DNA of 23,423 nt from IMG/VR virus record IMGVR_UViG_3300034073_001026, positions 1 to 23,423 of that record; one strand, 5' to 3'. How positions within the stretch are numbered: position 1 is the stretch's first letter; every line of letters begins with the position of its first letter. This stretch comes from a virus. A program made the position numbers and the translations under genes. The notes below the pieces were generated by a model. It was not told the DNA's origin. It saw nothing but the letters and a program-made list of their open reading frames with translations, and searched no databases. Positions 13,953-17,899 of the stretch are shown piece by piece.

Positions 13953-14408
13953 TCACTCCGGTTTCTCAGGCCAAGTCACGTTATGCGGGAAGCCCGGCTG
14001 GCTCGTGATGTCGCGCAGGCTTTGACGATAGATCTCCCATGCAGCGGGGATGTTCGTGCCCTTCTCGGTGTGCATGATGACGATCCAGTCTGTTTGCTGA
14101 AGCATGTGGTCACGCTCAGAACGAATAGATTGAGCCTTCTCCCGTGTGCGAACCTCGGTCTCTTCAGCGGAGGCATCTGTGATGTCCCAGACCTGCGTCC
14201 ACGTCCCGTTGATCTGCTGCGGGGTGCCTTCGTTGACGTTCTTGGTGTGATTTGCAACAGGGCGTTCAACAGGCGTCAGAGGATAGACACCATAGGCTGC
14301 AAGCACTGCATCAGGGATGTTCTTCGGGAAGCTGACTTGCGGGTTATCACGGCGCAGTTGCCCGATTGAGTATTTCTCAGGCTGGCCGTTTGTGAGTTTA
14401 ACGTGCAT
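13953..14408 (-). CDS. Tail fibre assembly chaperone-like protein
   Basis: The 151-residue protein ends with the pattern of caudoviral tail fibre assembly proteins: RDHMLQQTDWIVIMH (about 99-113), WEIYRQSLRDITSQPGFP (123-140) and NVTWPEKP. The N-terminal part (LTNGQPEKYSIGQLRRDNPQ) is typical of the same group. It likely helps fold or attach the tail fibre or the propeller protein encoded just upstream in the operon. No strong ribosome binding site is seen. Confidence 0.75.
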   Translation of the reverse strand: MHVKLTNGQPEKYSIGQLRRDNPQVSFPKNIPDAVLAAYGVYPLTPVERPVANHTKNVNEGTPQQINGTWTQVWDITDASAEETEVRTREKAQSIRSERDHMLQQTDWIVIMHTEKGTNIPAAWEIYRQSLRDITSQPGFPHNVTWPEKPE

Positions 14409-14411
14409 TTC

Positions 14412-14645
14412 TTACTCCAGTTGGCTGCGGATGACATCAAGCATGATCTGCGCCTTGCGTTGCTCCAACACAGACGAAGCAAGAAGGTTTTGCAGATGCT
14501 CCTTGAAGGGCTGTAGTTCTGCGTCGTCTCCGATTTTGACGATAGCAAGTCGGAAATTGTCGATGTTCACCTGATACTCAGTCACCTCCTTAATGCGAGC
14601 ATCAAGGGCGGCAGTCAGGATTTCTTTTTTGTAGTCGGGGTTCAT
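14412..14645 (-). CDS. Hypothetical helical protein, 77 aa
   Basis: I do not recognise this protein. It is fully helical with a Glu/Leu/Gln-rich coiled-coil character (EVTEYQVNIDNFRLAIVKIG, EHLQNLLASSVLEQRKAQIM). It sits between the propeller gene and the tail chaperone. The upstream stop and this ATG are adjacent (TAAATG). GC content is visibly lower than in most of the window, like the propeller gene, so both may have arrived together. Confidence 0.7.
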   Translation of the reverse strand: MNPDYKKEILTAALDARIKEVTEYQVNIDNFRLAIVKIGDDAELQPFKEHLQNLLASSVLEQRKAQIMLDVIRSQLE

Positions 14646-15680
14646 TTATATTTCCGTAAATATAGCAGTATTACCAGTGCCAGTAGGCAATGTTGCGGGG
14701 TCGCTAAATTTAGCGCCAAATCCACTGCCGCTCCAAGGATAAGCTGCGATATATGGACTATTTACATGGGCCATAGCTATTGCATCTCCTGTTTTTGAAA
14801 AAGACAATCTCCCCACATTACCTGCGGGCAATGTTGCTGGGTCGCTGTATTTAGACCCAAATCCACTGCCGCTCCACGGGTAAACAGTAATGTACGGCGA
14901 AGTAGAATGGCCTACTGCAATATCGTCTCCAGAAGGAGAAAAAGCAACACCGCTGCCTAGCCCGGCGGGCAGAGTCGAAGGATTGCTAAACTTAGACCCA
15001 AAGCCACTGCCACTCCACGGGTAAGCAGTAATGTACGGTGAAATTTCATGAGCGACGGCTATGGCATCGCCAGAAGGAGAAAAAGCAACAGGTCGACCGT
15101 TCCCGGTAGGAAGTGTGCCGGGGTTGCTAAATTTAGTCCCAAATCCACTGCCACTCCACGGGTAAGCGGTAATATACGGCGAATTAGAATGAGCGACGGC
15201 TATGGCATCGCCAGAAGGAGAAAAAGCAACCATGTTCCCAGCGCCTGTAGGCAATGTTGCAGGGTCGCTAAACTTAGACCCAAAGCCACTGCCACTCCAC
15301 GGATAAGCGGTGATGTACGGTGAAGTCGCATGAGCGACGGCTATGGCGTCTCCCGCTGGGCTGAAGGCAACGCCAATACCTGTACCCGCTGGTAATGCTG
15401 CTGGATTGGTAAATTTAGTGCCGAAACCACTATCGCTCCACGGGTAAACAGTAATATACGGCGAAGTGGCGTGAGCTACCGCTAAATAATCCCCGGATGA
15501 GCTAAAGGCAGCACCAATGCCATTCCCCGTAGGCAAAGTTGCTGGGTTGGTGTATTTAGACCCGAAGCCGCTAGTACTCCACGGGTAAGCAGTAATGTAC
15601 GGTGAAGTTACATGAGCGACGGCTATATACTGTTTCTTGCCAGCAGCAGTAGCCGACAATGCTTTCCAGTTAAGCGGCAT
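14646..15680 (-). CDS. Seven-bladed beta-propeller, candidate receptor-binding protein
   Basis: After a 17-residue head (MPLNWKALSATAAGKKQ), the 344-residue protein consists of seven repeats of 47 residues (the last 45) with the consensus IAVAHxxSPYITAYPWSGSG, then FGSKFSDPATLPTGxG and VAFSPSGD. Seven WD40-like blades predict a closed propeller disc. It follows the tail fibre gene with a TGATG junction and precedes a tail chaperone, so it probably forms a tail tip that binds a host surface molecule. GC is lower than in its neighbours, suggesting recent acquisition. The start at 15680 has GGAG seven bases upstream; the longer frame to 15728 overlaps the fibre gene. Confidence 0.85.
   Translation of the reverse strand: MPLNWKALSATAAGKKQYIAVAHVTSPYITAYPWSTSGFGSKYTNPATLPTGNGIGAAFSSSGDYLAVAHATSPYITVYPWSDSGFGTKFTNPAALPAGTGIGVAFSPAGDAIAVAHATSPYITAYPWSGSGFGSKFSDPATLPTGAGNMVAFSPSGDAIAVAHSNSPYITAYPWSGSGFGTKFSNPGTLPTGNGRPVAFSPSGDAIAVAHEISPYITAYPWSGSGFGSKFSNPSTLPAGLGSGVAFSPSGDDIAVGHSTSPYITVYPWSGSGFGSKYSDPATLPAGNVGRLSFSKTGDAIAMAHVNSPYIAAYPWSGSGFGAKFSDPATLPTGTGNTAIFTEI
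14649..15629 (-). repeat. Seven tandem 141-bp coding repeats
   Basis: The blades of the propeller protein are also repeats at DNA level with a 141-bp period and many identical runs (for instance the stretch coding for YPWSGSGFG). They could allow copy-number change or recombination between blades. The last copy is six bases short of full length. Confidence 0.9.
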
Positions 15681-17899
15681 CACGCATCTCCCACGCGAGC
15701 GCCGTAAACCTGACTTGATACTTTCCACAACGTGATGACTGTATATCCGCTCGTGTTCAATGTAGGTGCAACACCGCCATCAGTTTTCCACACAACACCA
15801 GAGCCACCCCATGTAGCATCCGTCCATGTCAGCGTGTAGGCCGTGCCATCGTCCACCATCAATGTCACCGCCTCACCATCAGCAAAGTTCGTGGCCTTCG
15901 GTGTGCGGGATGCGCCCAGCGTGATGAGCTGAATGGAGCCGTTGCCGGGATCGATCTCGAAGGCGGCACCATCGGAGATGGTGTAAACATCTTCGAGGAT
16001 CGTGCCAGTGATGGCCGGATCAACCAGAGTATTGCTGAACGCTAGATTGCCAGAGCCATCCGTTTTCAAGAACTGGTTGGCCGTGCCATCAGCCGCAGGC
16101 AGCGTCAGAGTGAAGCTCGACGACACCGTGCCGGGCGCTTGCAGGGCGACATACTGCCCGCCGGTGGTGTCTTGCAACCGCAGATCGCCGGTCGCCGTGA
16201 TGTCAACCTGGGCGAAGGTTACGTTGTCCGTGCTGCCGACGCCTAGATTGTCTCGTGCCGTAGCCGCATCAGCAACATCCGACAGATTGTTCGATGCCGA
16301 CAGAAATCCCGATCCCGGCGTGACGCCAGTCTCCCATGCCGACCCGTTGTAGACCTTCAGCAGGTTTGACGAGGTGTTGTAGAACAGGTCGCCCGTGTCG
16401 AGGCTGGTGACAGGATCGGTATTCCCGACGCGATATTTTTCCGCGAAGGATGTCACGCCCGCCACATTCGCGGCCACCGTCGTCACGTCCGAGCTAATCC
16501 CGGCGACGGTCGTCACAGCCGCAGAGATGCCAGCCACGGTCGTCACGTTGGCGCTGTTGCCTGCGACCGTCGTGACGTTGGCAGAGATGCCAGCCACGGT
16601 GGTTACGTTCGCAGAGATGCCAGCCACGGTGGTGACATTCGACGAGATGCCCGCGACGGTCGTCACATCAGCCGAGATCCCGGCAACCGTGGACACATCC
16701 GCGATGGCAGTCGCCACCGTGCCGATGTCTGTCGCATCGCCAGCAACCGCCGTCACATCCGCCGAGATGCCAGCCACCGTCGAAACATCCGCCGCGATGC
16801 CTGCCACGGTGCCGATGGTGTCGGAGCCTGCCAGATCCGCAGCCACCGTCCCGATGTCAGTCGCATCCGCAGCCACGGCGGTCACATCCGAGTCAATCGC
16901 GGCAACCGCGCTCACATCAGCGGCGATCCCTGCCACGGTGCCGATGTCCGTTGCGTCAGCCGCAACCGCCGTCACATCGCTGTCGATGGCCGCAACTGCG
17001 CTCACATCCGCCGCGATGCCCGCCACCGTGTCAATGTTTGTCTGCTCTGCCGGGGACGGTGCCGTGAACTTCCACGTCGTGTTGCCGAGATCGTAGACCT
17101 TCAGCCGGTTGTCGGTCGTGTTCCAGTAGAGCGCGCCGTCGATCAGCGTGTTGCCGTCATTGTCCGTAGCCGGATCGCTGTTCTTCGCGCCGAGGTAGCG
17201 GTCGTCGAACTGGTCGTAGAGCGTCGTGAACGCGCTGACATCCAGCAACAGATCCCACTTGGCGACATCAGCATTCGTCGAGATCGGCAGCGTGCCGGTC
17301 GAGGTGTGCGCCGTGTTACAGAAGTAGAGGTTGTCGTTGCCACCATCCTTCACGATGTCGCGCTGGTTGTAGGCGGTGCTGGCAGCCCAGTTGCCGCGAT
17401 AGGTGCCAAGCTCCTGCGCGATGCTGAGATCGCCAGCACTGTCAAATGCGAAGATCTTGTTGGCACGGGATGCGGCAGAGATCGTGAACTCGGTGCTGGC
17501 GATGGTGTTTGTCTTCGACGCCTTGATCGAGCGGTTCAACGTCTCCTGCTGTTGCTGCACCATGAACGTCAGCTTGTCGAGCGCGGCCTCCACGCTGTCA
17601 GCCGGGAACGGATCGTTGGGCACGATGTCCAACTCTTGGATCAGATCCTGCTCGCGGATGATGACCAGCGTCTCGCCCGTGGCAGGGGCCGTGAGCATGG
17701 TGACGTTGCCGCCGCCCGCGTTGCCGACACCGCTGACAGTGTAGTGCGTCGTGATCGTCTTCGTCGTCTCGGTGCCGTTGGCAGCCCGGATGATGACCGT
17801 CAGATCGTCCTCGTCGAAGATCTTGAACGTGTAAGCGAACACGGTCGTCGAGCTGTTGCCCGCGTAGCTGACCTTGTTGGTGCTGCTCGATACGGTCAT
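15680..17899 (-). CDS. Tail fibre with T7 gp17-like N-terminus
   Basis: The 739-residue protein should be a trimeric tail fibre. Residues 1-130 match the T7-type tail fibre attachment domain (NSSTTVFAYTFKIFDEDDLT, TGETLVIIREQDLIQELDIV). Residues 165-285 hold small beta modules (DGALYWNTTDNRLKVYD). Residues 291-480 are about 19 decapeptide repeats of the TTVAGISANV type, probably a long shaft. The C-terminal 250 residues are beta-rich (NNLSDVADAATARDNLGVGS) and end in a possible tip. It overlaps the internal virion protein gene by ATGA and the propeller gene by one base, so the two adhesion proteins are made from coupled cistrons. Confidence 0.9.
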   Translation of the reverse strand: MTVSSSTNKVSYAGNSSTTVFAYTFKIFDEDDLTVIIRAANGTETTKTITTHYTVSGVGNAGGGNVTMLTAPATGETLVIIREQDLIQELDIVPNDPFPADSVEAALDKLTFMVQQQQETLNRSIKASKTNTIASTEFTISAASRANKIFAFDSAGDLSIAQELGTYRGNWAASTAYNQRDIVKDGGNDNLYFCNTAHTSTGTLPISTNADVAKWDLLLDVSAFTTLYDQFDDRYLGAKNSDPATDNDGNTLIDGALYWNTTDNRLKVYDLGNTTWKFTAPSPAEQTNIDTVAGIAADVSAVAAIDSDVTAVAADATDIGTVAGIAADVSAVAAIDSDVTAVAADATDIGTVAADLAGSDTIGTVAGIAADVSTVAGISADVTAVAGDATDIGTVATAIADVSTVAGISADVTTVAGISSNVTTVAGISANVTTVAGISANVTTVAGNSANVTTVAGISAAVTTVAGISSDVTTVAANVAGVTSFAEKYRVGNTDPVTSLDTGDLFYNTSSNLLKVYNGSAWETGVTPGSGFLSASNNLSDVADAATARDNLGVGSTDNVTFAQVDITATGDLRLQDTTGGQYVALQAPGTVSSSFTLTLPAADGTANQFLKTDGSGNLAFSNTLVDPAITGTILEDVYTISDGAAFEIDPGNGSIQLITLGASRTPKATNFADGEAVTLMVDDGTAYTLTWTDATWGGSGVVWKTDGGVAPTLNTSGYTVITLWKVSSQVYGARVGDA
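16460..17029 (-). repeat. Decapeptide repeat region of the tail fibre shaft
   Basis: About 19 repeats of 30 bp encode xVTTVAGISA-type units. Residues 291-320 and 321-350 are identical 30-residue blocks, that is, a 90-bp unit in tandem. The region is a natural hot spot for length variation. Confidence 0.85.

Follow-up and report, generated by a model that had tools for sequence, protein, structure and literature searches.

In a viral DNA stretch of 23,423 nucleotides (IMG/VR record IMGVR_UViG_3300034073_001026, positions 1 to 23,423; hereafter the window), we identified a gene for a seven-bladed propeller protein of 344 amino acids (14646 to 15680, minus strand) that probably serves as an exchangeable tip adhesin, or head, of the tail fibre. 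The case for a fibre-tip adhesin comes from the genetic context, namely an exchangeable slot behind the fibre gene, a leader peptide and a putative dock. In the mechanism that we propose, the C-terminal domain of the fibre would act as dock and the short N-terminal leader of the head as plug, the seven-bladed ring would turn the variable loops of its top face towards the host surface, phages would exchange head genes as a whole through recombination either at the leader or within the fibre gene, and a companion gene would provide a dedicated folding or assembly helper for this propeller. Four parts of this mechanism are inferred, namely that head and fibre physically dock, that the head is present in the virion, that it binds a receptor, and what the companion does. 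With heads that appear to be interchangeable and plugged in by a common leader, related aquatic phages probably alter their adhesion target by swapping one gene. We give about even chances to the broader reading of a plug-and-socket slot in aquatic phages of different tail types, in which unrelated heads are swapped whole via matched dock-leader pairs and the propeller head always travels with its own partner, an undescribed fold-dedicated chaperone or adaptor.

Structure of the propeller gene

The head protein consists of a 17-residue leader (MPLNWKALSATAAGKKQ; 15630 to 15680, minus strand), the proposed plug, followed by seven WD40-like blades with an exact spacing of 47 residues. On the same strand, blades 1 to 6 occupy positions 15489 to 15629, 15348 to 15488, 15207 to 15347, 15066 to 15206, 14925 to 15065 and 14784 to 14924, and the blade 7 repeat of 45 residues, whose last strand is predicted to close the ring with blade 1, occupies 14649 to 14783. 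Self-identity of the protein is 0.73 at lag 47, compared to at most 0.18 at the other lags tested and 0.15 in 2000 shuffles, which places the blade periodicity far beyond chance. The gene lies directly after the tail fibre gene (15680 to 17899, minus strand; 739 amino acids, with PHROG tail protein and tail fibre matches), base 15680 being common to the propeller ATG and the fibre stop TGA in a TGATG overlap (15678 to 15682, minus strand) whose offset is the same in most related loci. Its GC content is 50.8% compared to 61.8% for the window, with a GC3 of 0.41 compared to 0.77 for the fibre gene.

These results bear out an earlier note on this DNA in its description of seven 47-residue WD40-like blades, encoded directly after the tail fibre gene in DNA of lower GC. 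The note had also described the blades as near-identical and preserved at the DNA level, suggesting recent expansion, and here our data disagree: identity between blades is only 56-83% for protein (mean 70%) and 59-82% for DNA (mean 69%), and synonymous sites have diverged almost to saturation (pS 0.65), for which reason a recent expansion was rejected. The likeness of the blades is kept mainly by selection at the protein level and not by recent copying, and blades 3, 4 and 5, with DNA identities of 79-82%, may be somewhat younger than the rest.

Predicted fold and relatives of the propeller

AlphaFold modelling with 16 relatives yielded a closed seven-bladed propeller (pLDDT 89.6, pTM 0.89), in which residues 1-12, within the leader, are the only disordered part. 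In the model, strand two of blade 1 comes first in the chain, and residues 336-343, which form the final strand, fill the vacant place; judging from this strand order, the ring would be closed by its last strand in the usual way. The earlier note had called for a structure prediction of a seven-blade propeller, and since the model shows no open or different fold, the predicted closed ring is strongly supported. The PDB structures most like it are symmetric seven-bladed designer proteins of the WD40 type (E 1e-17 for the best), and among viral models (BFVD) it matches phage 'WD40/YVTN' proteins and a POR1 protein best. Sequence searches with the head protein gave no match above cut-off to the Pfam WD40 family (PF00400) and no relative in the PDB; one relative, L166, passes the Pfam WD40 cut-off on its whole-protein score.

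Exactly 7, 14 or 21 blades are present in 92 of 115 distinct complete relatives and, in double and triple propellers, the spacing between units of seven (about 50-54) is longer than that within them, which together supports closure in sevens. Little weight was put on variants with 5, 6, 12 or 13 blades, as assembly collapse of repeats could yield them. Compared to L138 (3751-4779), L139 (3934-4824) lacks exactly one blade of 46 residues, in frame, with 99.6% identity upstream, and this loss is either real or an assembly collapse. The first propeller of L004 (1786-2548) has 5 blades and that of L003 (692-1733) has 7, with the same leader and fibre end in both. Two propeller genes per phage, each with its own leader, were seen in L003, L011, L018 and L019, and other phages carry this propeller as a direct fusion to structural N-termini.

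A bacterial origin of the propeller was rejected, since the search returned only three genome matches, all of them MAG contigs, and the two contigs that were read (L167 and L169) have phage-like neighbours. In these two, a Tepidiforma and a Fimbriimonadales MAG respectively, the phage-like genes flanking the propeller gene are 91-93% identical; the propeller parts, with 7 and about 5 blades, have no DNA match between them, and both genes have a common C-terminal tail in place of the N-terminal leader.

Variable residues on one face of the ring

Among 425 distinct blades, positions 7, 38 and 36 are the most variable, and these lie in the B-C and D-A loops. With the faces assigned from strand order, which puts the B-C and D-A loops on one side of an antiparallel four-stranded blade and the A-B and C-D loops on the other, the variable residues are concentrated on one face of the ring: entropy is 2.41 bits in the top loops (BC, DA; blade positions 7-8 and 34-39) and 1.07 bits in the bottom loops (p 0.004), and the top loops also differ from all other blade positions (p 7e-5). 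The bottom A-B turn is fairly variable as well (pN/pS 0.4-0.8). Compared to the closest relative, L088, the share of differing residues is 79% in B-C and 62% in D-A, intermediate in the A-B turn (54%), and 5% and 6% in the C-D loop and the leader. The two propellers have a DNA identity of 67%, compared to 83-89% in the aligned neighbouring stretches, so that the head was probably replaced or evolved fast. Blades at the same position in both (identity 0.654) are hardly more alike than blades at different positions (0.643), and no one-to-one match is present.

Proposed dock, leader and exchangeable heads

The C-terminal 116 residues of the fibre (15683 to 16030, minus strand) form the proposed dock. 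IMG/VR contains 351 relatives of it, and identity is 88-100% for the best 80 of these 351. Its model (pLDDT 88.5) was folded from an alignment from which a GenBank-derived row was excluded, and a structure search with it gave no significant match, the best being 9f4a (E 0.005), with the N-terminal part of CBA120 TSP4 at 0.013. In the fibre shaft (window positions 16473-17037), repeats of about 10 residues of the DVTTVAGISA type are seen as 30-nt tandem repeats. Behind the dock, a head ORF that bears a leader is present in 77 out of 77 readable loci, mostly with a one-base overlap with the fibre stop, where the leader ORFs were chosen by a loose pattern and then checked by eye. The leader type in this slot, ML-x-K-K-A-L-x-A-x-A, spans about 11 residues and, across head classes, leaders are 47% identical compared to 16% for the heads; a short sequence rich in Ala and Ser, as this leader is, nevertheless carries less weight when shared than a folded domain would. 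At propeller loci elsewhere, a fibre end '...FVFTADGTNWLGSVAGQNYL' is paired with the leader MFSSNTSQV, and a fibre end '...TTFYGFTAGQVLS' with the leader FAARKLMSASGG, and reading these by eye suggests that fibre ends and leaders form matched pairs. Leaders of the form 'PGVWTL......K.GLWPTAG', found before the propeller of L011, L018 and L019 in phages without this dock, are possibly another anchoring tag.

Behind the common leader, the heads of the 77 loci, classified from sequence pattern with at least one representative of most classes checked against Pfam, comprise DUF7483 in 47 loci and DUF7483 combined with LamG in one more; 17 loci carry this propeller, LamG and a lactonase/SGL-type propeller account for 5 each, and a kelch-like repeat and Lcl_C for one each. 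The alternatives to the present head, i.e. LamG lectin, DUF7483, Lcl_C and the lactonase-type propeller, are binding-type modules; the literature searched held nothing on DUF7483. Different heads occur on fibres that are 94-97% identical. L142 and L154 share 93.7% identity over 3267 nt, up to a point some 10 codons past the start of the leader ORF, after which LamG is present in the one and DUF7483 in the other; L090 and L100, also with different heads, are 96.9% identical across 2206 nt, and L088 (propeller) and L163 (DUF7483) 95% across 2832 nt. Variation by recombination, as suggested in the earlier note, is thus retained mainly in the form of whole-head swaps, and only weakly as blade loss (L139). 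Diversity-generating retroelements, with a reverse transcriptase and a template repeat close by, are another known means of varying adhesins. The slot layout is the same in the cultured Roseobacter phage CRP-1 (gp42 as dock, gp41 as DUF7483 head) and Synechococcus phage S-CREM2 (gp115, gp116), which carry other heads than the propeller, and a PF16778-type chaperone homologue, in the window the tail assembly chaperone at 13953 to 14408 (minus strand), lies downstream of the heads in 51 out of 51 loci with enough sequence.

Two further types of repeat head, lactonase-like with WDIST and kelch-like with GVFGGG repeats, sit in the same slot (L102, L111, L113, L114, L116, L106), and propeller-like heads may therefore have arisen there several times. 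Six slot loci have an endonuclease-like ORF between fibre and head, with the head leader about 620 nt past the fibre stop in L108, L124, L125, L150 and L153 and about 500 nt in L152. These inserted ORFs are a cysteine-rich, HNH-like one (by eye), of which a 90-residue piece had no match in Pfam, and a GIY-YIG one (PF22945); homing endonucleases could drive head exchange.

A companion gene associated with the propeller

Abutting the propeller stop, a companion ORF of 77 amino acids (14412 to 14645, minus strand; GC 49.1% compared to 61.8% for the window) was found that occurs only with stand-alone propellers. Relatives of it lie behind the head in 15 of 15 propeller slot loci and in none of 47 slot loci with other heads or, after clustering, in 8 of 8 clusters with a propeller and in 0 of 37 with another head (p 5e-9). 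Likewise, 45 of 48 clusters of stand-alone propellers have the companion, compared to none of 10 clusters of fused ones. IMG/VR contains 444 relatives and, for the best 80 of these 444, propeller blades are located at most 400 bp upstream in 74 of 76 informative loci, or in 75 of 76 when one further locus with blades at 512 bp is counted. For the companion, no family in Pfam passed the cut-off, PHROG gave no consistent family, and the matches in the PDB were weak, probably due to chance and unconvincing. Genes for phage fibre chaperones are often found directly behind their client gene, which makes a dedicated helper the first guess, and help with the folding or assembly of this propeller is its most likely role, a structural adaptor being possible. 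Slot, leader and companion were found nowhere described in the literature searched.

Alternative explanations and significance

The preferred reading as a fibre-tip adhesin has to be weighed against a protein that decorates the virion, on head or tail, or acts as a general sticking protein, with loose binding to surfaces or polymers instead of receptor binding at the fibre tip. Lectin-like and propeller modules are able to serve as decorations, and this propeller does appear in other settings, fused to other structural proteins or N-terminal as in L167 and L169; its strict place behind the fibre dock, the common leader and the swaps at the slot nevertheless make such a role unlikely. The slot shared with lectin-type heads, the diversification of one face and the fusions to phage structural N-termini also argue against a protein outside the virion, be it an assembly factor or an intracellular or host-directed protein that stands in the late operon by chance. 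We consider this explanation improbable, even though WD40 propellers usually are scaffolds for protein contacts and no proteomics of virions with a propeller of this kind turned up in the literature searched.

Least probable of all, in our estimate, is an enzyme acting on host surface polymers, for instance a propeller that cleaves sugars or resembles a lactonase. Enzymatic propellers do exist, as in the K1F endosialidase tailspike, and 6-phosphogluconolactonases are among the structure matches of the present one. An enzyme site was rejected, as 17 single propellers contain no blade-specific conserved residue and hence no asymmetric active site is visible; the location of the most variable residues on one face also counts against catalysis. 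For most uncultured aquatic phages, host range is unreadable from sequence because it is not known which part does the recognising. A constant dock and leader would pinpoint that part, heads could be catalogued across hundreds of contigs, and it would become testable which head binds which host. Companion and propeller, in turn, offer a specific, unexplained two-gene module for study.

Comparison with known systems

Beta-propellers have been proposed as host-recognition parts for phi11 gp45 (five-bladed), PRD1 P2 and phiKZ gp131C (seven-bladed) (PMC4901313); that paper does not portray them as 47-residue repeats of high symmetry encoded by a plug-in gene of their own. A propeller as the receptor-binding part of a phage therefore has precedents, so that, of the earlier note's proposal of a receptor-binding tip of unusual design, the fibre-tip adhesin is supported by context and the unusual design is not. 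WRAP and other highly repetitive WD40 propellers, the group of the best fold matches (7bid, 2ymu), share seven blades and high internal symmetry with the head. In WRAP the blades hardly differ and show no synonymous changes (PMC6805158), whereas synonymous sites between the present blades are near saturation (pS 0.65). PHROG 19311 is the same repeat family (E 3e-20) with an empty function field, and phage proteins annotated 'WD40/YVTN repeat-like' have the same fold (BFVD). MW202701.1 is 61% identical and its genes are arranged similarly, a dock, the companion and a tail assembly chaperone included; its annotation reads only 'wD40 repeat protein'.

The T-even phages offer a close parallel in arrangement, with gene 38 following gene 37. 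In T-even phages and S16, gp38 is a separate adhesin that caps the distal fibre protein gp37 and determines host range, with an N-terminal attachment part and a variable distal part (PMC6851490). The present head is likewise encoded by a separate gene directly after the fibre gene, here with a one-base overlap, and likewise combines a proposed N-terminal attachment part with a variable distal part. Pfam, PHROG and fold comparison gave no sequence or fold relation to gp38 and no polyglycine sandwich or glycine-rich motifs. Attachment here would be via a short leader instead of a helical bundle, the whole head fold changes and not the loops alone, and an extra companion gene is present. By analogy, the head would work like a gp38-type tip adhesin that stands outside the gp38 family.
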